A DNA stretch of 64,000 nt from a virus, in the IMG/VR virus record IMGVR_UViG_3300044833_000060, positions 1 through 64,000 of that record; one strand, 5' to 3'. Each line of letters opens with the position of its first letter. Position 1 is the first letter of the stretch. Under the pieces are notes generated by a model, which was not told where the DNA came from, searched no databases, and saw nothing but the letters and a program-made list of their open reading frames with translations. This document shows positions 40,315 to 57,284 of this stretch, one piece after another. The position numbers were made by a program, and so were the translations under genes.

Positions 40315-41921
40315 TGAGCACTCAGCCACTTTTCGATATGTCGAAGGCCACGCCGATCCCCGGCGCAGCGCAGCCCTTATTTGACATGAGTAAGGCTATG
40401 CCGATTGATCAGTCGCTACTCGCTGGTCAGGGCTCAGGCACGCCTGCAAAACAACCTTCCGTCTGGCAAACTCTCACGCAACCGACTGATAAGACTGACA
40501 AGGAATATCTCGGCTACACAGGACCAGCAGGCGTAGCAGGCGCAACCGTCCACGGCCTCAGTGATGTAGCGCGTAGCACGATTGGGACTGCAAAGGGCGC
40601 GGTGAAAATGTTCGATCCGCATACGCAGCCCGGAGAAAACGCTTTTACCAGTCTGCCAATTGTGCGCGCACTCCGTCCATTTGTAGATGCGGCGAAGCAG
40701 ATTCCGGAAATTCCGCAAGCGATCCGCGACATCAATGCCTCACCAGATCCAACCGGAGCCTACCTTAACGCCGCACAAGATACCGCTTCGCAGGGAGCTG
40801 GGCAAGCATTGACGGCGATTGGAGCAGAGGCACTTCCGAAGGCTCTACCGGGAGCGGCAGAGATTGTAAAACGAACTGTGCCGCCAGTAGTAAGAGGGGT
40901 GGCAAAAGGAGCGAACACAGTTCTGGCGAAAGCGCCAGGTGGTATCGGCCTTGCAGCAGGCGGCGCACTCGGCCACCTTACTAAGATTCCTTACGCGCCT
41001 GAAATTGGCGCGACTATTGGGTATGGATTAGGACAAGAGTTACTGCCGAAATTGAAGGTTCCCGGTGAGAACTTTGGCCTCCCGAAGCCGATCTACCGTG
41101 GTGCGCCATTGCCTGCATCTCCACCGACTGGCGAATTCGTAGACTCGCCGCCACAAGCAACAAATCAGCCTCGGGTCGCACCGTCGCAGGTAGTCGAACC
41201 TAAACTGCTTCCGGCAACGGCTTCAGGTGCGAGTCGGAGAGTACCGGGAGATATCGCACCAGAAGACGTGAGCACGCCCGACACATCTACACTGGCAGGG
41301 AAAAAAGGCATTCGCATTGTCCTGCCGGGTACGCCGAAACAACTTCCAGCAGCGACAGCAGAGGCTACTGCGGAAACTCCAACTACCACTTCCGCAGCGC
41401 CTAAACCTGCAACGTCGTCATTGGTTAGCGACCTTCTCAATCGCGGACTAGGGAACGAGCCACCGCCCAAGCCGATTCCTGGAAAGCCTATCTACATGCG
41501 GCCTTCTCCTCTGAAATCTCCCGCGCCTGAGGCATCGCCTGTTCCAGAAGGCATGACTCCGGTGCAATCTTCAGGGATGAGAGCCTACAGTTACGACGAA
41601 CCAAGTAAGACGTTCGCGGCGCAATGGCCTGACGGCTCGATTCATAAATATGGGGAAGTGACACCGGAAGAAGTTCAAGACTTCGAAGCTTCCGACAGCA
41701 AAGGGAGGGCGCTGCTAAAACTTAAAAATAATCACGTTCACGTCGCGGCGAATTACGGGCATGGATGGGTAAACAAAGCTTCGGCGATTCGTTCGGCTAC
41801 ACCAGAGCTAGCGACTAGCGCACCAGTTCCGAACTCGCCAACATCGGATGATCTGACCGGACTCCTTCAGCAATCCTTGGAGGCGGCGAAGAGTGGGAAA
41901 GGGAAGACGGTACGGCCTTGA
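40314..41921 (+). CDS. ejection-type virion protein with KTSC-like domain, 535 aa
   Basis: The N-terminus repeats 'QPLFDMSKAxPI' twice (residues 4-15 and 20-31). A Gly/Ala-rich hydrophobic middle (about 195-240) could cross or disturb a membrane. A Pro/Thr-rich disordered stretch follows. Near the C-terminus, 'SSGMRAYSYDEPSKTFAAQW' and 'GSIHKYGEVTPEEVQDFEAS' match the KTSC domain. It probably belongs with the proteins at 37113 and 38629. Confidence 0.7.
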   Translation: MSTQPLFDMSKATPIPGAAQPLFDMSKAMPIDQSLLAGQGSGTPAKQPSVWQTLTQPTDKTDKEYLGYTGPAGVAGATVHGLSDVARSTIGTAKGAVKMFDPHTQPGENAFTSLPIVRALRPFVDAAKQIPEIPQAIRDINASPDPTGAYLNAAQDTASQGAGQALTAIGAEALPKALPGAAEIVKRTVPPVVRGVAKGANTVLAKAPGGIGLAAGGALGHLTKIPYAPEIGATIGYGLGQELLPKLKVPGENFGLPKPIYRGAPLPASPPTGEFVDSPPQATNQPRVAPSQVVEPKLLPATASGASRRVPGDIAPEDVSTPDTSTLAGKKGIRIVLPGTPKQLPAATAEATAETPTTTSAAPKPATSSLVSDLLNRGLGNEPPPKPIPGKPIYMRPSPLKSPAPEASPVPEGMTPVQSSGMRAYSYDEPSKTFAAQWPDGSIHKYGEVTPEEVQDFEASDSKGRALLKLKNNHVHVAANYGHGWVNKASAIRSATPELATSAPVPNSPTSDDLTGLLQQSLEAAKSGKGKTVRP

Positions 41922-42146: not shown

Positions 42147-42380
42147 GTGGGAGGTATTCCAGCTCGCAACTTTCCCTTCCCCTCAGCCATTGGGAACTCG
42201 CAGAACGTTTCACCCTTGGTTACTCCCCAAGCGCCTACACCGAATGGTTCGGGAATGAATGCGGCTCAAGCATCACCTGGAATTCCTTCGACTCCGAACG
42301 CGCCAACCATGCCAATTGCTTCACCAGTGCGAAATCCAATTAGTCCGGTGCGCATGCCGTCGCCTGTTTTCTACGGATAG
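42147..42380 (+). CDS. Pro-rich virion-type protein, 77 aa, ends PVFYG
   Basis: It starts (GTG) 'MGGIPARNFPFPSAIGN' and ends 'RMPSPVFYG'. Disordered, Pro/Asn/Ser-rich. Shares the M-G-G start with genes at 37761 and 38629 and the P-x-FYG end with 20522 and 37761. Function unknown. Confidence 0.6.
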   Translation: MGGIPARNFPFPSAIGNSQNVSPLVTPQAPTPNGSGMNAAQASPGIPSTPNAPTMPIASPVRNPISPVRMPSPVFYG

Positions 42381-42405: not shown

Positions 42406-43161
42406 ATGAAACTTAAACGCATCCTTGCAGTCATTGCGCTGTCGTCCGTCTCCTTATGTTGGGCGGCTGGACCATCTCCATTACCTGCTGGTTTAGTTTC
42501 GCCATTTCCCCAGCCGCCAAATTCTACACTTTCAAATGGACTGATGATTGATTCCTCGGGGAACATCATCATTGCGGCGGCAGGCGGTACTCCTAACATC
42601 ATTACCAGTCTCGGATTCCCGCTGGACTCGTCGGGCAGGTTGCTTGTTAACTGTGCGACCGGGTGCGGCGTTAGCTTCACTCCTCTTTATCCAGAAGGCT
42701 ACCTTTCGTGGCAGCCGGGTACTCTGTACCCTCAGGCGCTTTCTGGAACGTGCGTGTTCGCAGCAGCGACGACTTGCACTATCGCCTACCCAACCACATT
42801 CGCATCAGTTCCCGTCGTCAACATCACGCCTGTCAATCCGGGCGCGGTGACCTTCACAGTCACAACGAGCAGCACGACCCAGATCGTAATTACAGGTAGC
42901 GGATCAAATTCGCTCACGGTTAATTATTCAGCCACCCTGCCATCAGGAATCAACTGCTCCACAAATACCTTTACTCTGACCGGCGCTCGACAGAATCTCG
43001 ACTTTGTGACCCCGCTGTGGCCGTCCGCGCTTCCCGCAAATCTGTCTGCAATAATGCGTGCCTCTGCCAGCGACACTATCGAAGTTCGTCTATGTAATCC
43101 CACTGCGGCGACCATAACTTTCAGCGCAGCACTGACCTTTGGAGCGAAATTATTCCGATGA
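42406..43161 (+). CDS. secreted fibre-like protein, 251 aa
   Basis: 'MKLKRILAVIALSSVSLCWA' is a Sec signal peptide. The mature part is a beta-rich, Thr/Ser/Asn-rich protein. Its C-terminal segment 'TCTIAYPTTFASVPVVNITP' and the rest to the end resemble fibre or receptor-binding tips. First gene of a run of eight with signal peptides. ATGA overlap with the next gene. Confidence 0.7.
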   Translation: MKLKRILAVIALSSVSLCWAAGPSPLPAGLVSPFPQPPNSTLSNGLMIDSSGNIIIAAAGGTPNIITSLGFPLDSSGRLLVNCATGCGVSFTPLYPEGYLSWQPGTLYPQALSGTCVFAAATTCTIAYPTTFASVPVVNITPVNPGAVTFTVTTSSTTQIVITGSGSNSLTVNYSATLPSGINCSTNTFTLTGARQNLDFVTPLWPSALPANLSAIMRASASDTIEVRLCNPTAATITFSAALTFGAKLFR

Positions 43162-44882
43162 GAAAATCCCTTATTGTATTCGCAACACTGTTGCTGTCAG
43201 GCGTGCTTCAGGCGCAGCTCCCGACCGCTGGATTAGTCGCACAGTACGACATGCTGACCGCTGTTAGTACGTCACTGACCGACCTTTCCGGAAACGGAAA
43301 TAACGGAACCATTGTCGGCACGACGACTACGGCGCAAGGTCGCGTGTGTAACGGCTCGTCAGATTACGTTTCGATGCCGCTTTTAATTGCGAACTCTGAT
43401 TTCACTGTTATTGTCGCGGCTACTGGCAACAACCCCAGCACCGGCGGCGCGACCTGGGGGGAGAGTAATGCATCGGCTAGCCAGTTCGTGCGCTTTGGAA
43501 CGTCTGCGGGCACCTGGACCGCATTAAAAGGGAACAGTGCGACCACGAATCTCACGGTCACGGTTCCAGATAAACGACCTGACTGGGATATGTTCTTCGC
43601 GTCCCGATCTCAAAGCCAAATAAGTGGGGGGATGCTGAGTCGAGCGAACGCTACCCAAACTGCCGTCAATGCGGTCCTCGGAACAGTTACGGTCAGCGGC
43701 GGCGGTGCGGCTATTTGCGCACTGAATGAAGGCGCGTCTCGCGTCAATTTCTGGGCAGGCACGATTGGTTATTTCGTGCTCTACAACCGGCACTTGAGCA
43801 CAACCGAATTGCAGGCGGCTTATGTTGCCGTAGCAACCGCGGTTTATTCACGCAGCGTTTTCGTTCACCCCTGGCCGCCGAGCGTCCTTCCTGTATACAC
43901 AAATCCGGTCTGGCAGAGACAGGGCGTCGTATTCAGTCTCGCAACCTCCGGCGCTGGTTTCACGACTGGAGAGCCATTGGCTCTCTATGACACCACTTGT
44001 CCGCAACTCTCGATATCTACCTGTTTCCGTCTGTGGTACTCAACGGCTGGCGAAACCACCATCGGGTACGCGGAATCACCGGACGGTTTCAAGTGGACCA
44101 ATCATGGTGCGGCGGGAAGTTCGGTCTTGACTAGCTGCGTTGCAGCAAGCGTTTTAAAAGTGGCATCCACCTACCACATGTACTGTGGCCGAGCGCAAAA
44201 CACCGGGCCGATTGACCACTACACATCGCCCGATGGAATTACTTGGACCATCGCAGATTCTGGCGTAATCGCGCTCGGTTCAGCAGCGGCTTGGGACGAC
44301 CTTGGCGTCGCCAATGCTTCGGTTCAGTACAGCCCCGATGGAAGCGGGACTTGGTACATGCTATACGGCGGCGACTCGGATGGGACGGGCATCTGGACTG
44401 GATTTGGAGGTTGGAGAACCGGCGGCGCGACATCGCCTGATGGCCACACCTGGACCAAACTGGCGGCGAACCCCACGATTGGACAAGCCGACGTGTTCTA
44501 TCCATCCCATGCAGGATTCGCTTGTTGCGGCAATCCCAACTTCTTTTACATCAATGGCGGGTGGTGGGATTGGGATGGCTCTTACGGAATCGTGCGCTTT
44601 GCCTCGCCAGTCTTCAACGGACTGTGGATCTGGAGCCAGCCCCATGCCTCTCTGCTGGAGGCTTCTGCCGATGAGTCGAACCAGTTGGCAGACCCCTCTC
44701 TCCTGCAAGCCGCGTGCCCCAGTGCGATCAACTCCGTTACGGGATCGCAATGCACGTTCATGTTTTATACGAGCTACTCGACTAACAGCGTGGGGACATC
44801 CGTCATTAAGCTCGCTATCGCCAACATGCCGATGTCTCAGCTAGTGACCACGGCGGAAGGGGCAACGACGGACTGGCCATGA
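43158..44882 (+). CDS. secreted LamG plus GH43/GH32-like beta-propeller protein, 574 aa
   Basis: The signal peptide 'MRKSLIVFATLLLSGVLQAQ' is followed by a LamG/concanavalin-type domain ('LVAQYDMLTAVSTSLTDLSG', 'GNNGTIVGT', 'YNRHLSTTELQAAY'). A second domain has repeats of the form Y-x-x-S-P-D-G-x-x-W-T ('YAESPDGFKWTNHG', 'YTSPDGITWTIADS', 'TSPDGHTWTKLA'), typical of five-bladed glycosidase propellers. This suggests a polysaccharide-binding and perhaps depolymerising protein. Catalytic acids are not certain. Confidence 0.8.
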   Translation: MRKSLIVFATLLLSGVLQAQLPTAGLVAQYDMLTAVSTSLTDLSGNGNNGTIVGTTTTAQGRVCNGSSDYVSMPLLIANSDFTVIVAATGNNPSTGGATWGESNASASQFVRFGTSAGTWTALKGNSATTNLTVTVPDKRPDWDMFFASRSQSQISGGMLSRANATQTAVNAVLGTVTVSGGGAAICALNEGASRVNFWAGTIGYFVLYNRHLSTTELQAAYVAVATAVYSRSVFVHPWPPSVLPVYTNPVWQRQGVVFSLATSGAGFTTGEPLALYDTTCPQLSISTCFRLWYSTAGETTIGYAESPDGFKWTNHGAAGSSVLTSCVAASVLKVASTYHMYCGRAQNTGPIDHYTSPDGITWTIADSGVIALGSAAAWDDLGVANASVQYSPDGSGTWYMLYGGDSDGTGIWTGFGGWRTGGATSPDGHTWTKLAANPTIGQADVFYPSHAGFACCGNPNFFYINGGWWDWDGSYGIVRFASPVFNGLWIWSQPHASLLEASADESNQLADPSLLQAACPSAINSVTGSQCTFMFYTSYSTNSVGTSVIKLAIANMPMSQLVTTAEGATTDWP

Positions 44883-45031
44883 CACTCATGCCGGAAGAAA
44901 ATCGCCGCGCTGTACACAACGGCACTCGCGGTGTCTCGTTTGACGAGAAACTCTCCACACTTCGCGCAGTGGACTTTAAAGGTCCCGTCGCGCTGTTTGT
45001 AGACGTTGTAGTTGTTCTCGGTGCCCATCAT
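44837..45031 (-). CDS. small zinc-finger protein with own promoter, 64 aa
   Basis: It starts 'MMGTENNYNVYKQRDGTFKV', then 'HCAKCGEFLVKRD' and a later His-x-x-Cys-His. An extended -10 (TGTTATACT) lies 8 bases before the first ATG. It overlaps the ends of two other genes. Its promoter and start resemble those of the acyltransferase gene. Confidence 0.55.
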   Translation of the reverse strand: MMGTENNYNVYKQRDGTFKVHCAKCGEFLVKRDTASAVVYSAAIFFRHECHGQSVVAPSAVVTS

Positions 45032-46070
45032 GGCCTGAAAGTATAACACGCTGGCCCATGACCCAATCTCGCACCCATCGGCTCGGAGTTTCGATCAGGT
45101 ACCACGACAACAAGGCGCACGCAAAAGCGGCTATCAGTGCGGGGATTACCCTGTGCGTTGATTCGGACAGGAAAGGTTGCTGCCAGAGATACAGACTGTA
45201 AGAAATCGTTCCCAGATAGGCGATGGGCTTCCAGTTTAAAACCCGCCCCGCCGAACAGTCTGGATTGCGAATTACGTAGAACATGATGTAAGCGATGGCG
45301 AAGTTTTCAAGCGACAAGCCGAGCGGTAAGGAATACCAGCCGCGAAAGCGCAGCGCGATCGCAGGGGAAAGCAGAAACAGGAATGCAACGCAACCAAAAG
45401 CAGTCCAGCCACTCTCGGCTTTTCGCCAGAATGCTTGGAACGATTGCTTCGGTTGCAGAAGCGCCAACAATGAACCCGTCATCAATCCGTCCACGCGAAA
45501 GTGAAACATGTAGTTGTCGAACGGGCCGTGATTCCAAACGCCATGGCTGATCGTGCGGATTACTGGAATGCTGGCGATGAGTACTATTGCTACCTTCAAC
45601 CCTTTGTGTCGTCCTAGCATCGCGAGTGCAAATGGCCACAGCAAATAAAACTGTTCCTCAATCGAGAGCGACCAACTGTGTCCAGTGGCCCAATCCCATG
45701 GAACCGGCGCATAGTCACGAACAAACAATAACGAAGCCAGCCACGGTCCCCAATGCGAAGTCAGCCAGCCGAGGTGCGACACCAGAAGAACGACGAACAA
45801 GTACACATAAAACGGCGGGACGATACGAAACAACCGGCGCACATAGAAATCACGAAGGCTTATATGTCCGGACTTGTCTTCTTCGCGGAGAAGCAGACTT
45901 GTGATTAAGAACCCGCTAATGACAAAGAAAATGGAAACACCGAGATCACCCCGTCCGACGAAATTCCAAAGATGTGTTTTGGTGATCGGCACTCCAGCCA
46001 TCGCATGCGAGAACACCACAAGGGCAATTGACGCTGCTCGAAGGCCATCTAGCGATGGGATACGCATCAT
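44976..46070 (-). CDS. OafA/YrhL-like membrane acyltransferase, 364 aa
   Basis: 'IPSLDGLRAASIALVVFSHA' opens the acyltransferase-3 family, with the catalytic His in the first span. 'FFVISGFLITSLLL', 'FYVRRLFRIVPPFYVYL' and 'SWSLSIEEQFYLLWP' are further family signatures, and about ten membrane spans follow. Such enzymes O-acetylate cell-surface polysaccharide and are known serotype-converting phage genes. It is on the opposite strand to the late genes and has its own promoter, so it is a moron-type insertion. Confidence 0.92.
   Translation of the reverse strand: MMRIPSLDGLRAASIALVVFSHAMAGVPITKTHLWNFVGRGDLGVSIFFVISGFLITSLLLREEDKSGHISLRDFYVRRLFRIVPPFYVYLFVVLLVSHLGWLTSHWGPWLASLLFVRDYAPVPWDWATGHSWSLSIEEQFYLLWPFALAMLGRHKGLKVAIVLIASIPVIRTISHGVWNHGPFDNYMFHFRVDGLMTGSLLALLQPKQSFQAFWRKAESGWTAFGCVAFLFLLSPAIALRFRGWYSLPLGLSLENFAIAYIMFYVIRNPDCSAGRVLNWKPIAYLGTISYSLYLWQQPFLSESTHRVIPALIAAFACALLSWYLIETPSRWVRDWVMGQRVILSGHDGHREQLQRLQTARRDL
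45040..45049 (-). promoter_or_regulatory. extended -10 promoter for zinc-finger gene
   Basis: On the minus strand TG-T-TATACT (-10 at 45045-45040), 8 bases before ATGATG. The surrounding bases (gTGyTATACTTT, then CCATGATG) match the promoter at 46079-46088. A -35 is weak (TTGGGT at 15 bases). Confidence 0.6.
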
Positions 46071-46078
46071 GGCGGAAA

Positions 46079-46088
46079 AGTATAGCAC
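46079..46088 (-). promoter_or_regulatory. extended -10 promoter for acyltransferase gene
   Basis: On the minus strand TG-C-TATACT (-10 at 46084-46079), 8 bases before ATGATG. No good -35. The transcript would begin at or next to the ATG, so the message is probably leaderless. Confidence 0.6.
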
Positions 46089-46120
46089 TCCTCAGTTCTC
46101 CTAAACCAATTCCACATTCC

Positions 46121-48736
46121 ATGCGAAAACTCTTTAGCATCTTCCTGCTCTTGTGGGCCGCTTCAGCCTGCGCGCAAACAGTCCCCGTCACGGCCAAATT
46201 GACGGATGGCAGCGGCAATCCAGTACCGGGAGCTTATCTTCATTTTGAACTCTACAACTGCGGAAATAACTACCCCTCCGTTCGCAGTGCTGGATTAGTG
46301 GTAGTCCAGAGATCGTTCGACCTACAGCCGAACTCCGCTGGAATAGTTTCGGGTGTCATCACACCCAATGATCTGATCCTATGCGGAAATGTGACTTCCA
46401 CTTTGTGGACCGTAACGCTCATGAAGAGTGGGGCCATTCCTCTAAATGCAGCGCAGCGCTACAACATCTGCTCGTCTACCGAAAGCGGTCCGCCTTGCGC
46501 GCAATCTAGTCGCGGCGCGGCTTTTGACCCTTCTTCGGCTCAGCCGGCGCAGGTCGTTTCTGGACTTGTAAATTACATTCCTCAGCCCCCCGGCTACATC
46601 CTGCTGTTCGCTAATCCAAATAACAATCAAACGTGGCAGCAGCCTCTTGGCACAACTGGATACTTCAAGGGGATGTTTGATTTCTCGGGAGCCACAGTAA
46701 CCGGATTGCCGAGTGGCGGTGGCGGTGGTGGTGGAAGTTCTACCCCGAATCCTTATGTCTCTTTCACCAATGCTCTAAGCGTTAATCTAGCAACTGGCCT
46801 GAATACTCCAGCGCTGATTCCGGCTTGCTGGGATTCCAATAACAACTGGTTCTTTCCCGCCAGCGCTCATCAGAACCCATCGACCTCGGTAGTTACCTTC
46901 ACCTTCGCTACCAATCAAAGCGGGATCTGTGGAGTGAATGGGACAGGCGGCGGTAGCGGTGGGGGAGGAAGTGGGCCACTTTTAAACGGCACGCAATATG
47001 TCGGACTCGGGACTAACAGCAATATTGCCACGACCGTCGTAAATGCTGGGACGAACAACGACATTGTAATTCCAGCGAATTATTTAGGAACTGACAGTTT
47101 CCCTTATGTCAATACCTTCAATGCGCCGATCCGGGACAATCGTTTCGGCGTAGCCTCAAATCCTGCTAATCACCTCAGTTACGCGAACAATAGCGAATTC
47201 TTCCAGTTGTTCGATGCTTCTCCGGTCAGCAATGACAACTGCTGCGGATGGGGCGGGCCTCCGGGAGTGGGGAATGCGGCTCCAATGGTCCACTACCATC
47301 TGACGGAATCAGGCGCTGCGAACGCAATGCCTTTAATGGTGGAGAGTGAGTGGGCTTCAGGTGCAACTGGGTTTCAGATTGGTTTTGACTTCGCAACAAT
47401 TGCTGACAGCGGCTCTCTTCCTCAGCAATTTTCAAATGTTTTCGTGTTGGCTGACAACTCGGGCTGGACGATTAACTCCTGCACGCTCGTGACTGGAGTC
47501 GATACCTGTTCGCTATTGGGCGCGACCCTTACGGCTGGGCAGCAGGCTGCTCTCGCGGGTAACGGCGTATATGTTTCCGGAAATTCAGCGGCGAACACGG
47601 GCGGGGTAACAGGCGTGATTACGGGAACGACTGGCACGACTATTACCTTTACAAATGCAAATCAAGTGGGATCTGGCGGCCCCGTGTCTGGCGGAACTAT
47701 CGCGCCCAATCACTTAGCCTGGGGAACGGAATGGAATATCTTCAACAACAATCACGATCCTGGGGCAACCACGCCCACCAGCGCACAGAACGTTTTCCCC
47801 TTCCATGGATTGACGGTTACTCCGAGTGGCACTTTTCCGCTGTCAGAAGCTTTTTACGGCGGCGGCGGTGCTTACGCGACCTTCCGCAGCGACAACGCTA
47901 TTACGGCGGACTTTATGGCTGGCACGCCAGTCGTAGGTGGGCCGCTGCTTTCAATCGTCGGTTTTGAAGCTCGGCCGCGGCAAGTAGCGACCGCAGGGAA
48001 CAATTACCCTAGCAAAGCTATTGCGCTCGACATGAGCGGGTGGAACGGATCTAGTTACTCAGAATCACAGAACCTAATCAAGCGCACTCCGCAGTCGAGC
48101 GCGACCAATTCAGCCGGACAGTTGTCCTTTATTACTCCACTTACCACCGTCAATCTATTAGACAGCGGCCAATGGCTACCTCCGAATCAGACAGTAGCCG
48201 CTCCCGCCTATTCGTTTGCCGGGAACCCAACTTCAGGATTTGGCATTGATGTCGGAGCCCAGCCGGAAGTATCAGTGAATGGTGTGGAAGTTGCGAGTTT
48301 CTCTGGGGTTGGTATGAACGCACTGTCCATTTCCACTGGCAGCGGGGCGGGCGGAACAGTCAACCTCGGCTACCTCCTAATGAACGGCTCGGCCCCGACC
48401 TGCACATTTACCTCGGGTGGCGGAACTTCTCCTACCTGCACGCTTGATACGGGATCGGCAAACGGTGCAGGGATCATCATCGCAACGACCGGTACGGGTT
48501 CGCCGGCAGCTACCGGCACAATCACGCTGTTCTTCAACGGCACCATGGGCAACCACAATCCGGTCTGTCAGTACGAAGCGAGCGACAACGTAGGCGCATG
48601 GCAAGCCCTAGCTGTGTTCAAGGACAAGGGACCGAGTACATCAAGCGACCTTTTCACTTGGACGAATGGTGTGACTCCCACCGCTCTGACTGCTTCTACC
48701 GCCTACTGGATCAATTATCAATGCGTAGCCAAATAA
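46121..48736 (+). CDS. secreted tail-fibre-like protein, 871 aa
   Basis: The signal peptide 'MRKLFSIFLLLWAASACAQ' is followed by an Ig/transthyretin-like start 'TAKLTDGSGNPVPGAYLHFE', as in many tail-fibre N-domains. Two poly-Gly hinges occur (residues ~202-213 and ~295-305). Later come beta-rich segments ('AYSFAGNPTSGFGIDVGAQP'). The C-terminal domain 'GTGSPAATGTITLFF' is common on phage fibre ends. The Sec signal on a fibre-like protein is unusual. Confidence 0.75.
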   Translation: MRKLFSIFLLLWAASACAQTVPVTAKLTDGSGNPVPGAYLHFELYNCGNNYPSVRSAGLVVVQRSFDLQPNSAGIVSGVITPNDLILCGNVTSTLWTVTLMKSGAIPLNAAQRYNICSSTESGPPCAQSSRGAAFDPSSAQPAQVVSGLVNYIPQPPGYILLFANPNNNQTWQQPLGTTGYFKGMFDFSGATVTGLPSGGGGGGGSSTPNPYVSFTNALSVNLATGLNTPALIPACWDSNNNWFFPASAHQNPSTSVVTFTFATNQSGICGVNGTGGGSGGGGSGPLLNGTQYVGLGTNSNIATTVVNAGTNNDIVIPANYLGTDSFPYVNTFNAPIRDNRFGVASNPANHLSYANNSEFFQLFDASPVSNDNCCGWGGPPGVGNAAPMVHYHLTESGAANAMPLMVESEWASGATGFQIGFDFATIADSGSLPQQFSNVFVLADNSGWTINSCTLVTGVDTCSLLGATLTAGQQAALAGNGVYVSGNSAANTGGVTGVITGTTGTTITFTNANQVGSGGPVSGGTIAPNHLAWGTEWNIFNNNHDPGATTPTSAQNVFPFHGLTVTPSGTFPLSEAFYGGGGAYATFRSDNAITADFMAGTPVVGGPLLSIVGFEARPRQVATAGNNYPSKAIALDMSGWNGSSYSESQNLIKRTPQSSATNSAGQLSFITPLTTVNLLDSGQWLPPNQTVAAPAYSFAGNPTSGFGIDVGAQPEVSVNGVEVASFSGVGMNALSISTGSGAGGTVNLGYLLMNGSAPTCTFTSGGGTSPTCTLDTGSANGAGIIIATTGTGSPAATGTITLFFNGTMGNHNPVCQYEASDNVGAWQALAVFKDKGPSTSSDLFTWTNGVTPTALTASTAYWINYQCVAK

Positions 48737-50265
48737 TCCTCATCATCGCGAGTCTCGTCTTAGTAGGCTCAGCTTTCGGGCAGCACACGAACAACAATAC
48801 CTCGTCGTGCGCAGATTCGACTTCGCCCTGTAATGGAGTGGGCGTACAGCCATTCCTGAGTAACCCCGCTGATACCGGAGACGAAACCCCAACCGTTAAC
48901 CCATTAGCGAGCTTCGTTTCTACCCTTCCAATTAAGTCCTTGCTCTACCCGAGCGCAACTACTCGGGTTGCTTGCGAAGACCAGCCGTGGTTCTTGAACA
49001 CTGGCGGCTTTAACGGCCACAAAAACATAGGCATGGACGAAAGCAACCTCGCGCAGAGATTAGAGCAAGCAACAGCCATGAAGACGGCTGGCTGCGACTT
49101 GATGATCGAAGATTATTACGGTTGCGCAGGCTCCTGTGGCCAGCCTCCCGCGCACAACTTTGAACTCTCGGCGACGACGGGATTCGTTGCTGGCATCGCC
49201 GCCAATCCCACTACTACCCCGAAGTTTGCCATCATGATCGACGGAGGAGCGATCAGCGGCTCTGGCACTGGTCAGTGTCCAAGTTCCAGTTCGCCTTCGG
49301 AAACCTGCATAGAAGCCGCGCTTAACGCACAGCTTGACTACATGTGCGTGAACTGGCTCTATCAACCCTACTACGAGACGAATGTGAACAATGGTCATCC
49401 CATTGTTCTTTACTTCCTAAGTCAGTCGGCAACCTGGTCAGGCACGAACTTCAATACCGTCTTTGGAGTAGTAGCGGCACACGCCACTGCCGGAAACTCT
49501 TGCGGCTCTGGCCACACTTACACCGCGACCGTAGATTTCCTCGACGAGAATTCAGGAGCATTTAGCGAGACTGGCATCGCTGGCGGGTATGCTTGGCCCC
49601 AGCCGAATACCTACTCGATCACGAATCAGTTTCACTGGCAAGGGCCGGGGTCGTTCGATTACCTCGCTGACTTTTATTCTCATGCCCGGTCGAATCCAAC
49701 AAAGATCGCGATGGGCGTTCTCTATAAAGGATTCAATGACCACGGGGCGAGTTGGGGATCGAATCGGACAATTGCCCAACAGTGCGGCGGGGTTCTCGGC
49801 CTAACTGCGGCCAAGATTGGCGCTTCGGGCTATAACTCATCCAGTCAGTTGCAATACGTTCAAGTGGCCACATGGAACGACTACGAAGAGGGAACGGAAA
49901 TAGAAACCGGACTCGACAACTGCATAACCATCGGAACGCCAACTATTGCTGGTGGAACGATATCGTGGCCGCTTATCAAAAGCGACACGACCTACGCATC
50001 GACCTCAACCATCAGCAGCTTTCAAATCTGGACCGGAACGACAATCCCGACCACTCTCTTCGCTTCGGGAATCTCTCCGTCAGTTACCTCAATCACCTCC
50101 CCTACCTTGTCCACTGGACAAAGTGCATGGGTCTATGCGGTCGGCGGACCATTGATCCAGAACCGGTTATCGCTCCCATCGGCAGCACCAAGCGGAGTTT
50201 GTAAAGGCGTCACCTTTACCGGGGGAATCACTACTACCGGCGGAATCATAATCCCATGCATGTAA
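48721..50265 (+). CDS. secreted GH71/GH99-like glycosidase, 514 aa
   Basis: 'MRSQIILIIASLVLVGSAFG' is a signal peptide. The TIM-barrel part includes 'RLEQATAMKTAGCDLMIEDY' and 'GHPIVLYFLS', then 'VQVATWNDYEEGTEIETGLD', the hallmark W-N-D-Y-x-E-G-T of GH71 (alpha-1,3-glucanase) and GH99-like enzymes. A C-terminal FN3-like domain follows. It likely acts on a host polysaccharide in the periplasm or outside. Confidence 0.78.
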   Translation: MRSQIILIIASLVLVGSAFGQHTNNNTSSCADSTSPCNGVGVQPFLSNPADTGDETPTVNPLASFVSTLPIKSLLYPSATTRVACEDQPWFLNTGGFNGHKNIGMDESNLAQRLEQATAMKTAGCDLMIEDYYGCAGSCGQPPAHNFELSATTGFVAGIAANPTTTPKFAIMIDGGAISGSGTGQCPSSSSPSETCIEAALNAQLDYMCVNWLYQPYYETNVNNGHPIVLYFLSQSATWSGTNFNTVFGVVAAHATAGNSCGSGHTYTATVDFLDENSGAFSETGIAGGYAWPQPNTYSITNQFHWQGPGSFDYLADFYSHARSNPTKIAMGVLYKGFNDHGASWGSNRTIAQQCGGVLGLTAAKIGASGYNSSSQLQYVQVATWNDYEEGTEIETGLDNCITIGTPTIAGGTISWPLIKSDTTYASTSTISSFQIWTGTTIPTTLFASGISPSVTSITSPTLSTGQSAWVYAVGGPLIQNRLSLPSAAPSGVCKGVTFTGGITTTGGIIIPCM

Positions 50266-51935
50266 TGAAAGCTATCTTCGCGGGTCTCTTATTTGTGTCG
50301 ATTGCTTCGGCGCAGATGATTTTCAATGGTGCGCCCGGATTCTCCGTGCCCAACGATCCCACGGTTGGCACCACGTTAAATGGCACAGCAATCATCGGTT
50401 CGACTGGGGCCATCGGAGCGACCACGACCGCAGCCCAACAAATCTACATCGTGGTAGACAATGCTGGAACGACTGGCAGTGCAACCTTAGCTTATTCCGG
50501 GATCGCTAAATGTACCTTCGACACCTCAGTTCCTAATGCAGCGAACTACTTCGTCATTGAATCTCCTTCGTTCAATGGTCAGTGTCATGCGCAACCAACC
50601 GCTCCCACCAGTGGATGGGTTATCGGTTTCCTTTACGATTCCTTAACGACCATCGGACAGACTTCGCGCGTCATCGTCTCCCCATTCCCGATCAGCGGTG
50701 TTGGTTCTATCCCTGTGCCTCTTATGGTGGGCGGCACATCGTTCATCGGGTTCACGGAAGATCCGTTTTGCGCCATCAATTCTCCCTTAGATATTCTCTG
50801 CGACCTGAATGTCGGAGGAGGAAATTCAGAACTTGTTTTCAATGCGAACGGCGCGAATCAAATCCTCGCCTATACCAACGTTCCCCAAGGCTTTACCGCA
50901 TTACAAACATTCATCGCCGGCCTTACCGCAACTGGGCCGATAAATGCGAACGGTGGATTGAGTACAACGACACTGAGTGCGACTGGACCCGTCACCGCTA
51001 GCGCAGGGATCACCACAACGACACTCGGAACTACGGGGCCAGGGGCTGGCGGAAATGCTGAAACGCAGGGAGCAGTTCCGAATTTGGCCGCGTCCCCGAA
51101 CAGCATCATCGTTAACGGTGCCCCGAACTCTGTCACTTCGCCTTACTTTCAATATTGGCCGGGTGCGCCGGGGACGGGATTGTTTCTCGGTACAGCCTCA
51201 GCCGCGGCTACTTTCGGAACTTGCGTGTTTAGTGCTGGTGCAGTTACTTCGTGTCCCGTCAGTTCTGGTGGCACCTATGGCGAGACGCCTGGATGCTGGT
51301 TAACTGGCGGCGGCGGTACTGGGGCTCTCTGCACGTTCACGATGTCCGGTACTGCAATCGCTACAGTGGTGATATCTCCCGGCGGCGTTGCATACACTTC
51401 GGCTCCAACGGTGAACGCGACCAAGGAAGTCGCAGTCTCTCAAGTTCCCTTGCCAATTAGCGGCGCGGTCACGGCGGCGGATGTAACCTGCGGCACTGGC
51501 GGAACGATTTCTTCCTGCGCGTCGGCCACAACAATTCCGGGACTGAGTTTCACCCTGCCCTTACTGGCTACGAACTGGACGATGGACTGTGATTTAGTCG
51601 TAGGTCAGGCCACGGCGGCAACGGCAAATCAGTGGCTCATTCAAACCGCAACCAACGGCGTAACTAATACCACTGCCTCCTACACAATGGCCACCGCAGC
51701 TACGGCAGCTATGGCGGTTGGCGCGGTCACCGATCAAGCCTCGACTACCACAGCCTTTCAAATCTCGCCATCGTGGACGCTGGGCGGCACTGCGACCAAG
51801 ATGCCGGTGCACATCCACGCGCTACTTGAAGGGGTTTCGGTATCTGGAACCGTGGTCAATCTGCAGGTGCTCGCGCCGACCGTGGCCGACCTGCTCACCA
51901 TTTACCGAGGGGCTTCGTGCTCACTGCATCAGTGA
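50265..51935 (+). CDS. secreted fibre-like protein with short repeats, 556 aa
   Basis: The signal peptide 'MKAIFAGLLFVSIASAQ' is followed by a beta-rich region. Short stalk repeats around residues 225-265 read T-x-x-A/T-T-G-P ('TATGPINANGGLSTTTLS', 'ATGPVTASAGITTTTLG'). The C-terminal tip domain ends 'DLLTIYRGASCSLHQ' and resembles that of the protein at 19213. The start forms a TAATG overlap with the glycosidase stop. Confidence 0.75.
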   Translation: MKAIFAGLLFVSIASAQMIFNGAPGFSVPNDPTVGTTLNGTAIIGSTGAIGATTTAAQQIYIVVDNAGTTGSATLAYSGIAKCTFDTSVPNAANYFVIESPSFNGQCHAQPTAPTSGWVIGFLYDSLTTIGQTSRVIVSPFPISGVGSIPVPLMVGGTSFIGFTEDPFCAINSPLDILCDLNVGGGNSELVFNANGANQILAYTNVPQGFTALQTFIAGLTATGPINANGGLSTTTLSATGPVTASAGITTTTLGTTGPGAGGNAETQGAVPNLAASPNSIIVNGAPNSVTSPYFQYWPGAPGTGLFLGTASAAATFGTCVFSAGAVTSCPVSSGGTYGETPGCWLTGGGGTGALCTFTMSGTAIATVVISPGGVAYTSAPTVNATKEVAVSQVPLPISGAVTAADVTCGTGGTISSCASATTIPGLSFTLPLLATNWTMDCDLVVGQATAATANQWLIQTATNGVTNTTASYTMATAATAAMAVGAVTDQASTTTAFQISPSWTLGGTATKMPVHIHALLEGVSVSGTVVNLQVLAPTVADLLTIYRGASCSLHQ

Positions 51936-53791
51936 TGACTTACGTAAGACAGATTCTCGTAGCCGTGCTGCTCTGTGGCCTGAGTTACGCCCAGATCGGC
52001 CTCAACACTCCCGTGCAGATGAATGTGTGGGCCGTCCCCTATACGACATCCACTTATAGTCCAGATGGCCTCAACGTAGCCTGCCCGAACGGTGGAGGGG
52101 CGGTCGATACCTTTTTAGCGGCCAATGCTAGAGCAACCATCCTTCCGGGAACGGCGCGATGTGTCGATCAGACTCCTTCCGCAGGACCGTACTCAAGTCC
52201 GACCTACTCGTGGACCGGCTTCGACGCGATGGCGTTGAACTATCTGAATTCTTCGACCGGGCTTGCGGGAACCAGCGCCAATGCGACCGGACATCTTGCA
52301 TTCGTGGTTCAGCATCAGGCGAATCCATCGCTCTCGCCTCCCGGCTACACCCCGCCCTACATCGTTACCCAAGGCTGGGCCGATGCCGCAATCTGCGGAA
52401 CGGTGAATTCTCCCATCGGCTTTCTGTGGGCGGCAAATCAGATTTATCAAGCAGGCTGGCAAACCTGTTTCAAGATCAGCGGCACGAATTACTACTTTCA
52501 GACCACCAATGCTATTTCCTGCCTAACCGGATCGTCCACGCCCGCATTTACCATCGGCGGCACCAATATTTCGGATGGGGGATGCGTCTGGAACTACGTT
52601 GGGATCCATGCTCTACCTCAGGATGTAGTGACCAATGGGTGCTCCTCGACTGGCACTTACGGATTTGTGGCGCCGTGGCAAGCCGGTCAGCCTTATTCTC
52701 TCGGAAATCAGGTTACAGCCGCAACGCTGGTCACGGGAGGAGTTTGCTACAAAGTCACAACCGCTGGCACCAGTGGCGGCAGTCAGCCGGCTTGTATCAC
52801 TACGAACACCTGCGGCGCGACCGTTACCGACAATACGGTGACTTGGACCAAGGAAACCTCCAACGTCGTTCTCAATGCCACCACTGAGACGGGAGCGCCG
52901 GATTCTACTTGCACGGGATGCGGAACGGCCGGGTCGGCGAGCGTCTTAGCGCAAAGTTTCTTAGTGCCATTTGAGCAACCGTACATGGTGTGGGTGGCGC
53001 GGCTCAATCGCGATGTCATGATCCATACCTTAGCGGCGAACTATGGCCAGTATGTGGACTACGAGCGCTTTGGCTGGTCTCTGGGCGGAGAACATTCCCC
53101 CGAACTGATGACCATTGTCGAAACCGTTCTGCCTGTCGCCTTTCAAGATGACGAATCCCTGGAAGCGGAATGGGTGGGTGGGGCGGAAGTCATGATGCGA
53201 TTGAATTCGGCCTGGTGGGTGAATCATTGCCAAGGGACCGGCGGCTGCAATTTCAAAATGGTGGCGGCGGTGAATTGTGGTGCGGGACTTCCGAATACTC
53301 CCGGCGGGGTGGATTGTACTTGGGCTGCGGACGAAGCTCTCTATGCCGCCAGTTTGCCGGGTTACATCGTCGGATCGAATGGGGTAGCAGGGTTTCAATG
53401 CAATGGCTGCACTCAGCCTGGCGACCTTACGGCCAACGCCTCAGGCGCGCCAACCTCAAACGGAAATAGCCTCTGGCATCCGCTTCTCTACGGCAAAACC
53501 ACAATCATTGAGCAGATGGCGAATTGCTCGACTCCGGTCTCGACCTGCCCACAAGCCTCATCCGGAACGGCGGTCGGGGATCTACGAGTGATCTTGCCGT
53601 TCGCTACTCAGTCTGGAGTAAACATTTTGGAGATTTACGAGAAAGACTGGAAATGTGCGTTTCTCGGCACCAGTTGTTCAACGCAAGCCAGTTACTTACA
53701 AGCCTTCATCAATGCTTCGCAGGGAATCCCTACAGCCACCGGACAGACGGTTGGATCGGGAAATAGTGTTGGCGCGGGGACCATGCAATGA
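51935..53791 (+). CDS. secreted protein with carbohydrate-binding-like modules, 618 aa
   Basis: The signal peptide 'MTYVRQILVAVLLCGLSYAQ' is followed by a probable barrel-type enzyme domain in two parts. Between them are two copies of a ~60-residue module. The clearer one contains 'WQAGQPYSLGNQVTAATLV', 'CYKVTTAGTSGGSQP' and 'DNTVTWTKE'. This module resembles chitin-binding-like modules on phage tail proteins. 'GQYVDYERFGWSLGGEHSPE' could be an active-site region. Catalytic function not proven. Confidence 0.65.
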   Translation: MTYVRQILVAVLLCGLSYAQIGLNTPVQMNVWAVPYTTSTYSPDGLNVACPNGGGAVDTFLAANARATILPGTARCVDQTPSAGPYSSPTYSWTGFDAMALNYLNSSTGLAGTSANATGHLAFVVQHQANPSLSPPGYTPPYIVTQGWADAAICGTVNSPIGFLWAANQIYQAGWQTCFKISGTNYYFQTTNAISCLTGSSTPAFTIGGTNISDGGCVWNYVGIHALPQDVVTNGCSSTGTYGFVAPWQAGQPYSLGNQVTAATLVTGGVCYKVTTAGTSGGSQPACITTNTCGATVTDNTVTWTKETSNVVLNATTETGAPDSTCTGCGTAGSASVLAQSFLVPFEQPYMVWVARLNRDVMIHTLAANYGQYVDYERFGWSLGGEHSPELMTIVETVLPVAFQDDESLEAEWVGGAEVMMRLNSAWWVNHCQGTGGCNFKMVAAVNCGAGLPNTPGGVDCTWAADEALYAASLPGYIVGSNGVAGFQCNGCTQPGDLTANASGAPTSNGNSLWHPLLYGKTTIIEQMANCSTPVSTCPQASSGTAVGDLRVILPFATQSGVNILEIYEKDWKCAFLGTSCSTQASYLQAFINASQGIPTATGQTVGSGNSVGAGTMQ

Positions 53792-56100
53792 AAAAACTCT
53801 TACTGATCTTCCTTTCGATAGCCGGCCTCGCTGCGGCGCAGACCCAAATCAATTCGACTCCTAATCCGGTGACCGCCTTAGTGCTACCCGCTCTCACCGT
53901 GCCCCTGAGCGCCGTTCCTGTGACCATGCAATGCCTGACCGTACTGACGGATGGTACACAGAGCACCCCAGCGCTCTTGGCCGTATGGTCCAGTTCCAAT
54001 CCTGCAGTAGCCACCATCGTCTCTGGGCTGAATGGAGTGGCAACCATTGGCCTAGTTGCAGCGGGTACTACCACGATTTCCTGCTTCATGAGCGGGAAGA
54101 CCGGATCAAATACTCTGACGGTTACTGCCACCCCGACTATCACCGCTCCGAGCTGTGGAACGCCGCCCTGCGCTTTGCCGGGTGGAAGCAATGGCGCGGC
54201 ATATACCAGTTCACTGGCTGCGACGGGTGGCGTGTTGCCTTATACCTGGACTTGCCCGACCACATGCAGTAAGCCAGCATGGTTAAGCATCAATGCTTCC
54301 ACGGGCGCTTTGACCGGCACAGCAGCTACCGGCAGCACGACTTTTACCATTCAGGTGTGCGATAGCACCAGCCCTACTCCATCCTGCAATACGCTTTCGG
54401 TCACTCTTGCGGTGACTAGCAGTTGTGGACCTCCGACATACAGTTGCTCACGAACCGACACTTCACCCCTATCTTATGCCGCTTCCCTTGTTCCTCCTCA
54501 AATGGGAGCGAATTCCTGTAGCGCGGGAAGTTTGGCAGCCTGCGGAAACCTGGTCGGAGCTGGAACCTTAGTCAACGACCCGTTCTTGTCGAATCCGGTC
54601 ATGCGCCTTACCGATAACACTACGAGTCGGGCGGACCAGCCGAACGTCACCAACGTTGCCGATATCAGCGGATCGGGCGATGAGATGCATTTCAGTTGCG
54701 ACTCGTCCATGGTTACCGTGGGAAGTATTAATAGTTGGGCCTTCCCCATGAATTTCACCTGGGGTTCGGCACCCACGAAGATGTACGCCACCTCGTTCGG
54801 AAATGGCGGACTCTACTTCTCGGGTGCGAATGGCGGCATGGCATGGGGCCACGTATGTCCGAGCAATGCCAACGTTCTATACATCCTGAATGGCACCGTG
54901 TTGGGGCATTATAACCTTGCGGGAAATTGCCCGACGTGTACCGCGCCATCCGTGGTTACCGACTTTGACTTCGCCAGTTCCGCGAATTGCTTGGGAACCT
55001 ATACGTCCACTTGGGCGGATTTTGGTGGAGGCGATCAGTTTGATACGGACTATGCTGTTGGCTTTTCAAAAACCGGTGGACAGGGTACAGGAACGAAATT
55101 AGCGGTCTGGCGCAAAGGCTTTGGCTGTCGCGTACTCGATACTTCCACGGATACCGTGACTGGCGATTGGGGTCCGACCGGCGTCATTCCCGGCACGCCC
55201 TGCACCGGAACCATTCACAACGACAAGATTGCCAAGGTTGGCGGGAGCGCCGGATCTGTTCTCTGGGCAATCACGGGCGCATCGGCGGGATGTGGAACGT
55301 CAGCGGCAACCCAACCGTGGCAGTGGAATTATGCCAGCTCTACCTTGACCGGAAGCATTTCTTCGGCCTGCACCGGAGTTCATTGTTCTGGCCATTGGAC
55401 CGAGGGATTATCCACCTTCGCGAACAATCCTGGCGATGTTGCTCCGAATGCACTGACGGTCAGACCTTTAACCACTCCCGGAACAGGAACTGGCATCACT
55501 CCGGTTTATCCCGTGGTTGCGCCAACGGACTCCCATTTCGGCTGGAACCAACTCATCGACTCGCAACCATTCTTAGGAACCTTTTCGCGCTTTACCGGCT
55601 TACCTCCCGTGGCCGCATGGGAAAACGAGGTAGTCGGCTTCCAGCCCATTTCGAGCGGCAAGCAGTATCGCTTCGCCTCCACCTATAACACTGGAGTGAG
55701 TCCCTATTTCTCTACCCAATACGCGATCGGCAGCGTTTCCCAGGACGGCAAGTATTTCATATTCTCTTCCGACTGGATGAACACACTGGGCTCCATCAGC
55801 GGCGGAAGTACCTGCGTTCCTCACGGCCCGAATTGGGCAGCTTCCACTGTCTACGCGGCTACGCCCTACTTGTCGAGTTTCCCTGCCAATGGCGGGGTCA
55901 TCAAGCCGACTTCAGGAAATGCTGGTGGATATTCCTACAAAGCCTCCACTGCCGGTACGAGTGGATTAGCGCCTCCTACGTGGCCACAGACAGTTGGTGG
56001 AACCGTTGCCGATGGCAGCACCTTGGTCTGGACAAACGTTGACGCCGAAGGGACAACGAAAGCCTGTCGCGGTGATGTATTTGTCGTCCTCTTGCAGTAA
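53788..56100 (+). CDS. secreted multi-domain Ig / propeller protein, 770 aa
   Basis: The signal peptide 'MKKLLLIFLSIAGLAAAQ' is followed by a Big2-type Ig domain ('LLAVWSSSNPAVATIVSGLN') and a He_PIG-type Ig domain ('YTWTCPTTC...LSINASTGALTGTA'). A large beta-propeller-like region follows. At the C-terminus is one copy of the module also present in the gene at 51935 ('YSYKASTAGTSGLAPPTW', 'DGSTLVWTN'). Probably a large adhesin-like or polysaccharide-binding protein. Confidence 0.75.
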   Translation: MKKLLLIFLSIAGLAAAQTQINSTPNPVTALVLPALTVPLSAVPVTMQCLTVLTDGTQSTPALLAVWSSSNPAVATIVSGLNGVATIGLVAAGTTTISCFMSGKTGSNTLTVTATPTITAPSCGTPPCALPGGSNGAAYTSSLAATGGVLPYTWTCPTTCSKPAWLSINASTGALTGTAATGSTTFTIQVCDSTSPTPSCNTLSVTLAVTSSCGPPTYSCSRTDTSPLSYAASLVPPQMGANSCSAGSLAACGNLVGAGTLVNDPFLSNPVMRLTDNTTSRADQPNVTNVADISGSGDEMHFSCDSSMVTVGSINSWAFPMNFTWGSAPTKMYATSFGNGGLYFSGANGGMAWGHVCPSNANVLYILNGTVLGHYNLAGNCPTCTAPSVVTDFDFASSANCLGTYTSTWADFGGGDQFDTDYAVGFSKTGGQGTGTKLAVWRKGFGCRVLDTSTDTVTGDWGPTGVIPGTPCTGTIHNDKIAKVGGSAGSVLWAITGASAGCGTSAATQPWQWNYASSTLTGSISSACTGVHCSGHWTEGLSTFANNPGDVAPNALTVRPLTTPGTGTGITPVYPVVAPTDSHFGWNQLIDSQPFLGTFSRFTGLPPVAAWENEVVGFQPISSGKQYRFASTYNTGVSPYFSTQYAIGSVSQDGKYFIFSSDWMNTLGSISGGSTCVPHGPNWAASTVYAATPYLSSFPANGGVIKPTSGNAGGYSYKASTAGTSGLAPPTWPQTVGGTVADGSTLVWTNVDAEGTTKACRGDVFVVLLQ

Positions 56101-56122
56101 TTGAAAAGAAGGAGTTTCTCAA

Positions 56123-56482
56123 ATGAAAACTGTACACACACTGATCATCGCAGGGGCAATCATTATAGCCGGAGCGCTGGCTGGACTCGCGCAAAGCTAT
56201 GGCGGATTCACCTTCGGCCCGATTGCCCCAGCCGTGGCGAATTGCCCCATTGGTCAGGCAAATTACGCCACATTGTGCTCCGTGGGAACGTCACCAACGA
56301 GCTACGCGACCTACGTCAGTTACAACTTGGGAGCATACCAACCCCTGATCCCGCCTCCTGCTCCAGTAGGCGTGACTTCCTTCAATAAGCGCACTGGAGA
56401 CATTCAATTGACGGATCTGGACGTGCAACAGGCTGGCGTAAAAGTCTCTACGACCGTGACGGCAGTTTCTACCGTTCAGTAA
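56123..56482 (+). CDS. secreted short fibre-like protein, 119 aa
   Basis: 'MKTVHTLIIAGAIIIAGALA' and 'GLAQ' form a signal peptide. The motif 'GVTSFNKRTGDIQLTDLDVQ' is the S-F-N-G/K-R-T-G-x-V/I-x-L repeat of phage tail fibres and collar proteins. AAGGAG lies 11 bases upstream. Last rightward gene. Confidence 0.75.
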   Translation: MKTVHTLIIAGAIIIAGALAGLAQSYGGFTFGPIAPAVANCPIGQANYATLCSVGTSPTSYATYVSYNLGAYQPLIPPPAPVGVTSFNKRTGDIQLTDLDVQQAGVKVSTTVTAVSTVQ

Positions 56483-56657
56483 GAGCGTGGTGGTCTAGTT
56501 GGTCCTGAGGTTTGTGGCACCAGAATTTAGGCGGCGTTTGTTCATCATGCTCTAGGATTCGAGTCGGATCGGCGCACGTGGTTACCTCTTCGTTCTCCAA
56601 TTTACCCAAGCAATTGCATTCGGTATGGGGATCGCCAATTTCTCCAGAACACGTCAT
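56469..56657 (-). CDS. Cys-rich small protein or frame-shifted tail, 62 aa
   Basis: It contains 'CSGEIGDPHTECNCLG' and two further Cys. It overlaps the end of the secreted gene at 56602 by 56 bases in another frame. Either it is a separate Cys-rich protein, or it is the original C-terminus of that protein displaced by a frameshift. It runs against the last late gene. Confidence 0.45.
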   Translation of the reverse strand: MTCSGEIGDPHTECNCLGKLENEEVTTCADPTRILEHDEQTPPKFWCHKPQDQLDHHALTER

Positions 56658-56964
56658 TGCGTAAGCGCATCTCCGTCTTGCGGGTCACCTTGACGGCTGG
56701 CACGTCGGGCGGCTCGGGCGCGTCGCATGACGGAATTTTTGGCACAATACCTACTTGCTGAAGGCTGCCTGTATAGCAAGCTACTGACTCCACTTTTTCA
56801 CCGCATTCGTCTGGGAAGATGTCTTTGATAGCCTTCGTGGATTTCCCGAAGGTGATTGTTTTGTCACAACTATCGGTTGTCGTCGGCAGAATGGTATGGT
56901 TTTCGGTTGTTTGCCCTACTGCTGTACCCACCAAAACCAGCAATGCTAAAAAGTAAGGTCTCAT
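56602..56964 (-). CDS. small secreted protein, 120 aa
   Basis: 'MRPYFLALLVLVGTAVGQ' is a signal peptide nearly the same as that of the next gene ('MKTYFLALLVLCLG'). Mature part has four Cys and is Lys/Glu-rich. ATGA overlap with the gene at 56961. Function unknown. Confidence 0.6.
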   Translation of the reverse strand: MRPYFLALLVLVGTAVGQTTENHTILPTTTDSCDKTITFGKSTKAIKDIFPDECGEKVESVACYTGSLQQVGIVPKIPSCDAPEPPDVPAVKVTRKTEMRLRNDVFWRNWRSPYRMQLLG

Positions 56965-57284
56965 CGTCCAACCTCGTCTTTCCTTGGCAGCCGACATGAT
57001 GGCTTGTGTTTATGATCTTCAGAGCCGCCCGAGATTTCCCCATTCTTCGACGCGCCCATGACACCGCCGTCAGGTAAGACTTGCACATATCCTACCGGGC
57101 ATTGCCAAAATCCTGGCATTGCATATTTATCCCAGTACGGGTGGGCAATCCACAATGGGTCTGGGTTTTCTCCAGTCGCGTGCGGCACAGGATAAGTCCC
57201 GTGAGTCTGGGTACGCTGCGTCTGACTTTCGCATCGTGCCAGTCCCAAGCAAAGTACCAGTAGTGCCAAAAAGTAAGTTTTCAT
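56961..57284 (-). CDS. small secreted protein, 107 aa
   Basis: The signal peptide 'MKTYFLALLVLCLGLARC' is followed by 'WIAHPYWDKYAMPGFWQCPV' and a basic tail. GGAGGAG lies directly before ATG. Signal peptide shared with the gene at 56602, suggesting duplication of the leader. Function unknown. Confidence 0.6.
   Translation of the reverse strand: MKTYFLALLVLCLGLARCESQTQRTQTHGTYPVPHATGENPDPLWIAHPYWDKYAMPGFWQCPVGYVQVLPDGGVMGASKNGEISGGSEDHKHKPSCRLPRKDEVGR

Follow-up and report, generated by a model that had tools for sequence, protein, structure and literature searches.

Sec-type leaders on a run of fibre-type late proteins in a tailed phage with an SU10-type head, and a possible export route to the virion

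Fibres of known tailed phages are assembled in the cytoplasm, which is a reducing compartment, and we know of no tailed phage with a periplasmic attachment step. How, then, should a run of large fibre-type late genes be read when their products appear to begin with Sec signal peptides? The question is raised by IMG/VR record IMGVR_UViG_3300044833_000060, 64,917 bases long, of which the first 64,000 were analysed (the window, to which all positions refer unless another locus is named). The original prediction had been that eight consecutive genes, and two more elsewhere, encode such leaders, and it had left two options: that the proteins are exported to remodel the host surface, or that the particle is finished in the periplasm or outside the cell.

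The terminal repeats suggest that the record is a complete, circularly mapping genome. An exact repeat of 127 nt is present in the record and in two of its relatives, G018 and G022, and the ends of a third, G007 (57 kb), overlap over 176 nt with 99.4% identity; all four are probably complete circular maps on this account. The virion genes of the window lie on the plus strand and lack leaders. They encode a portal protein (22519–24750; PF23899, 21.7 bits against a cut-off of 30), a major capsid protein (SU10_MCP, 26759–28003; PF17236, 1.7e-26), an adaptor (SU10_adaptor, 31908–32636; PF24175, 3.1e-08) and, directly 3' of the adaptor, an 896-aa tail protein (32645–35335) that is probably the nozzle. 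Since the capsid and adaptor exceed the Pfam SU10 cut-offs, with the portal matching weakly, we regard this as a tailed phage whose head is of the SU10 type. Two further large leaderless proteins (38629–41921, plus strand), with a KTSC domain in the second and zero cysteine, are encoded upstream of the run and are probably ejection proteins. Also within the virion module, a glycosyltransferase-like gene and an NAD-dependent epimerase occupy 30155–31920; the start of the former is present in G003 and G008, and the matches of the latter come from mixed taxa.

The SU10/Kuravirus-type podoviruses thus provide the closest comparison, with a similar capsid and adaptor, a weakly similar portal and a similar order of virion genes. 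In SU10 the long fibres gp12 and gp13 are encoded between the adaptor and the nozzle (PMC9509320), whereas in the window there are no fibre genes between the adaptor and the 896-aa gene, and the fibre-type genes, all with leaders, end the module. None of the genes in the 50 kb of SU10 examined passes our leader test.

All ten genes are open reading frames at the predicted starts, and each product has an n-region, an h-region and a signal peptidase I (SPI) site. The run, on the plus strand, opens with a predicted exported protein of fibre type (251 aa, 42406–43161; leader MKLKRILAVIALSSVSLCWA^AGPS, six mature cysteines), followed by one of 574 aa (43158–44882; ...GVLQA^QLPT, ten cysteines), for which the sole match is phrog_22373, of unknown function. 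The third product is a putative modular fibre of 871 aa (46121–48736; MRKLFSIFLLLWAASACA^QTVP, 14 cysteines), the fourth a protein of 514 aa (48721–50265; ...GSAFG^QHTN, 14 cysteines) and the fifth a putative fibre of 556 aa with a C-terminal tip domain (50265–51935; MKAIFAGLLFVSIASA^QMIF, 12 cysteines). Proteins of 618 aa (51935–53791; ...GLSYA^QIGL, 22 cysteines) and 770 aa (53788–56100; MKKLLLIFLSIAGLAAA^QTQI, 24 cysteines) and a small one of 119 aa (56123–56482; ...AGLA^QSYG, two cysteines) complete the run. The two outliers, also on the plus strand, are of 214 aa (13760–14404; ...CVAARA^QVST) and 200 aa (19213–19815; ...VAALA^QWGA), each with four mature cysteines. Directly ahead of the run is a small ORF with a GTG start and the motif NFPFPSAIG (approximately 42147–42380, plus strand), which could encode an adaptor or chaperone; a short ORF resembling it (FPWPS.IGGS) precedes the first leader-bearing gene of G007 and of G004. 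Directly 3' of the run, on the minus strand, are two small overlapping genes (56602–57284) with leaders that resemble each other (YFLALLVL...), which look like a tandem duplication.

Two details of the original prediction had to be amended. The eight genes are not strictly consecutive; a minus-strand gene for an OafA-type membrane acyltransferase (Acyl_transf_3, 44976–46088) lies between the second and third. It is possible that this enzyme modifies surface sugars; its best plasmid relative, a weak match of 39% identity, is on a Paludibaculum (Acidobacteriota) plasmid. The domain labels fared unevenly. An Ig domain was recovered (He_PIG in the 53788 protein), but searches of the named genes against Pfam, NCBIfam and PDB sequences found none of the LamG, propeller or GH71-like domains, with no LamG match in the 43158 protein.

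That the leaders usually end before a glutamine was borne out. By inspection this residue occupies position +1 in nine of the ten proteins, for example at ACA^QTVP (46121), ASA^QMIF (50265) and AAA^QTQI (53788), and the exception is the 42406 protein, with CWA^AGPS; for 13760, 48721 and 56123 our script placed the cut two to three residues earlier than inspection did. Glutamine at +1 after SPI cleavage, the Q-rule, has been called Bacteroidetes-specific (PMC5837995). The likeness extends to about half of all the leader-bearing proteins (23/45); a sample from Acidobacteriota plasmids gave four of 13, which is too small for comparison. We considered lipoproteins and rejected them, as the run has no lipobox except for a pattern match in the 46121 protein, whose leader is better accounted for by the ^QTVP site. 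Leaders of lipoprotein type occur in the window only outside the run, as in a small protein encoded on the minus strand at 1711–2256 (TFA^CTVD).

Leaders were called with a home-made physical test of n-region, h-region and SPI site, not with SignalP. When applied to 45 coding sequences of E. coli K-12 the test flagged 12, none of them annotated as cytoplasmic, with one clear miss (elfG). Among genes for products of at least 400 aa, six of 13 in the window are leader-bearing compared with none of 53 in six control phages, namely SU10, lambda, T7, P22, crAss001 and B124-14 (Fisher p = 2e-5).

It had been proposed to check whether related phages share the leaders, and they do. Relatives by portal or capsid number about 15 IMG/VR contigs, the leader trait recurs in at least a dozen contigs, and synteny is conserved. 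G007 has the same pair of large leaderless genes, and after them come genes for two leader-bearing proteins, of 1458 and 863 aa. The gene that comes next in G004 and G008 encodes a leader-bearing relative of the 46121 protein (the QTVPV family) and is cut by the contig end; in G011 and G016 there are several leader-bearing proteins, the largest of 1829 aa. The capsid and portal of G018 are SU10-like, and G019 and G021 match the phrog_9953 capsid family, so that leaders of this kind span two capsid lineages or more; G011, G020 and G022 match neither family. The small proteins recur as well. The 19213 protein has a homologue in G007 and same-leader copies in G005, G013 and G015, and relatives of the 56123 protein in two further contigs retain ^QSYG although their leaders differ. 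At the place of 19213, upstream of the terminase region, G002 has a distinct leader-bearing small protein (L025:7331–7978), as if tips had been swapped behind the leader. Scans with the 40314 protein and with the 53788 protein found no relatives. No relative of the portal, the capsid, the 46121, 50265 or 19213 proteins or the G018 spike was present among 50,697 cultured-phage records, and 84,980 GTDB species genomes held none by alignment of either the portal or the QTVPV domain. From the kind of relatives found, we read this as a phage from soil.

Such recurrence bears on the possibility that the leaders are a product of chance or annotation, through wrong starts or contaminating host DNA. 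The 46121 and 48721 genes do have longer in-frame openings upstream, which would suit misplaced starts, but chance and wrong starts are ruled out by the rates in the control phages, the E. coli calibration and the recurrence in at least a dozen contigs, and host contamination by the conserved synteny and the terminal repeats. We give an artefact of this kind a vanishingly small probability.

The mature parts of the leader-bearing proteins are rich in cysteine, and in a first hand-picked set the count was even in 27 of 28. The parity had been spotted after the fact and the count was therefore rerun with automatic calls, pooled over 13 related contigs, with the leaderless proteins of the same genomes for comparison. 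An even number of mature cysteines was found in 40 of 44 leader-bearing proteins, and in all 23 of those with at least 300 aa, against 112 of 251 and 46 of 94, respectively, for leaderless proteins (Fisher p = 5e-9, the parity p-values being somewhat optimistic because proteins that share a tip domain are not fully independent). Of the four leader-bearing proteins with odd counts, one probably comes from a spurious ORF and two could be lipoproteins, given a cysteine at the cut or directly beyond it; the fourth is unexplained. In a held-out replication 11 of 12 were even, the odd one having a lipobox-like LAGC site. When the cysteines of the leader are included in the count, the even fraction falls to 31 of 46. 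Even counts are expected of extracytoplasmic proteins in which cysteines are paired in disulfides, and a preference for them is a property of the extracytoplasmic proteins of Gram-negative bacteria (PMC7678975). As judged from sequence, nothing speaks more strongly for working leaders than this parity.

The family of the 46121 protein adds a second line of evidence. Its N-terminal 190 or so residues are conserved in five other phages and its C-terminus is variable. From the cleavage site onward the domain (the QTVPV domain, 46175–46690, plus strand) shows about 50% identity among family members, and in a six-row alignment there are no invariant columns upstream of the cleavage-site glutamine and 39 from it onward; in alignment A5 one leader position, L4, is also invariant. 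Alignments A1 and A3, in which the G008 row is without an internal stretch, served as search queries and conservation alignments, and A5, with the unedited G008 locus, was the basis of the model of the domain. The parity of the cysteines, the conserved cleavage sites behind unconserved leaders and the recurrence in many phages together support export well, and we hold it to be almost certain that the proteins of the run are exported; they would then also be cleaved and oxidized.

Two of these observations weigh against the suggestion that the leaders, though genuine, work poorly or are bypassed, so that each protein remains wholly or partly in the cytoplasm and is assembled there as an ordinary fibre, the leader serving perhaps as a virion anchor. 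Cytoplasmic assembly is the norm, and the support for fibre identity set out below would fit such proteins equally. The cysteine content and parity, however, indicate an oxidizing compartment for the mature chain, and the leader varies freely in sequence ahead of a fixed cleavage site. We consider a bypassed leader unlikely.

If the proteins are exported, are they fibres? The QTVPV proteins of the window, G007, G011 and G016 match one another over about the first 190–235 residues; beyond residue 235 or so there are only two short matching patches, common to G007 and G011. A conserved N-terminal domain with a variable C-terminus is, on these alignments, the usual layout of a phage receptor-binding protein, here with a leader in front. 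The QTVPV domain, a candidate attachment domain, was modelled as a β-sandwich (pLDDT 57); the best PDB match of the model is weak (E 3e-3) and is to one chain from the tail tip of Ur-lambda. Homology to the N-terminus of lambda Stf was also tried; the hhalign comparison was not significant.

The C-terminal tip domain of the 50265 protein (51531–51932, plus strand), with two invariant cysteines, was used alone as an IMG/VR query; the leader was left out and therefore could not bias the matches. Seven loci in seven contigs were found, those in G007 and G011 already known and five new, and in all seven a leader is present on the same ORF. The model of the tip has a pLDDT of 74.5, and in BFVD it best matches proteins of collagen-repeat and side-tail-fibre type from uncultured Caudovirales (E 1e-6). 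PHROG structural matches of the exported proteins of the window are weak, and in G018 a leader-bearing protein with PHROG tail-spike matches (1.3e-7) is encoded between the portal and capsid genes. The tip of this spike (L064:2986–3381) is 88% identical to the window tip, the spike otherwise belonging to a distant phage, from which a recent exchange of tips follows.

Do these phages also encode fibres without leaders? A screen for fibre-type composition covered all proteins of at least 250 aa in the four genomes with terminal repeats (the window, G007, G018 and G022), and no large fibre-type protein without a leader was found among them; the G022 protein 49428 falls just under the threshold, its leader nonetheless being evident. 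Taking together the modular layout, the tip fold, the tail-spike relative and the absence of a leaderless fibre candidate from four genomes, we regard it as highly probable that the proteins of the run are receptor-binding fibres or spikes.

The evidence for export would fit equally well if the proteins never joined virions and remained periplasmic, bound to the outer surface or within the matrix, where they might act as superinfection receptor blockers, as matrix-degrading enzymes or in remodelling the host surface. The acyltransferase within the run belongs to a family with which other phages modify sugars of the surface; the leader test is passed by lambda lom, whose product is exported to the outer membrane and whose gene adjoins the tail-fibre genes; and G018 carries integrase-type genes. 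Yet this would leave four complete genomes without a large fibre-type virion protein, and the architecture and tip fold of the proteins are fibre-like; in G018 a leader-bearing tail-spike-like protein is encoded between the portal and capsid genes. Lysogenic-conversion morons would call for a temperate phage with an integrase, and a PF00589 match is present only in G018, with none in the window record. We treat a purely cellular role as a possibility of the second rank. Export itself is well supported, and the choice between the two original alternatives, host remodelling and finishing outside the cytoplasm, lies beyond sequence alone; we lean towards the latter.

We propose that the run encodes a receptor-binding fibre and spike set made as Sec precursors, an explanation to which, as a whole, we give an even chance. 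Each chain would cross the inner membrane unfolded and lose its leader to signal peptidase I, usually exposing a glutamine, and the mature chain would fold in the periplasm with every cysteine paired in a disulfide. Heads and tail cores would form in the usual way, inside the cytoplasm. Once lysis opens the inner membrane, the tail core would come into contact with a periplasmic pool of finished fibres and bind these by way of N-terminal domains, the QTVPV domain among them, the particle being completed outside the cytoplasm. Two points tell against this explanation: a single tail would have to carry a large number of exported proteins, seven to ten, and the fold match of the candidate attachment domain is weak. 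We infer the trimerization in the periplasm, the attachment to the virion and the timing of the steps; attachment after export seems to us evenly poised. That in a group of tailed phages the whole receptor-binding apparatus passes through Sec, acquires its disulfides in the periplasm and is docked onto tails either during lysis or once these are released is plausible, if a little short of an even prospect.

How does this compare with known systems? The proteins resemble the fibres and spikes of tailed phages (lambda Stf, P22 gp9, T7 gp17) in their conserved N-terminal domain and variable C-terminus, their richness in G, S, T and N and the jelly-roll fold of the tip, but they carry a Sec leader, their median cysteine content is about four times as high and their cysteines are paired by count. 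Among DNA phages, the inovirus virion proteins pVIII and pIII are Sec-exported and are assembled in the inner membrane during extrusion. The window phage shares with inoviruses the use of Sec-exported proteins but it is tailed, and genes for a capsid, a portal and an adaptor are present. Secreted and SAR endolysins are phage proteins that use the host Sec system (PMC6116005). Exported lysis and conversion proteins such as these and lambda Lom use host Sec too, whereas the window would export a whole large fibre-type set. A literature search, with subscription journals mostly outside its coverage, returned reports of exported endolysins and no Sec-exported tail fibres.

Predicted leaders on every large fibre-type protein are contrary to the accepted account of how tailed-phage fibres are made. 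If the proteins stay on the host instead, about 13 kb would be devoted to late remodelling of the cell surface, which would be equally unexpected. If this group of soil phages, a widespread one, does send its fibres through Sec, then fibre folding would depend on periplasmic oxidation and chaperones, and a last assembly step during lysis or outside the cell would constitute a separate assembly route. It would also explain why standard expression in the cytoplasm may not work for such fibres, and would amount to a host-dependent barrier to infection.
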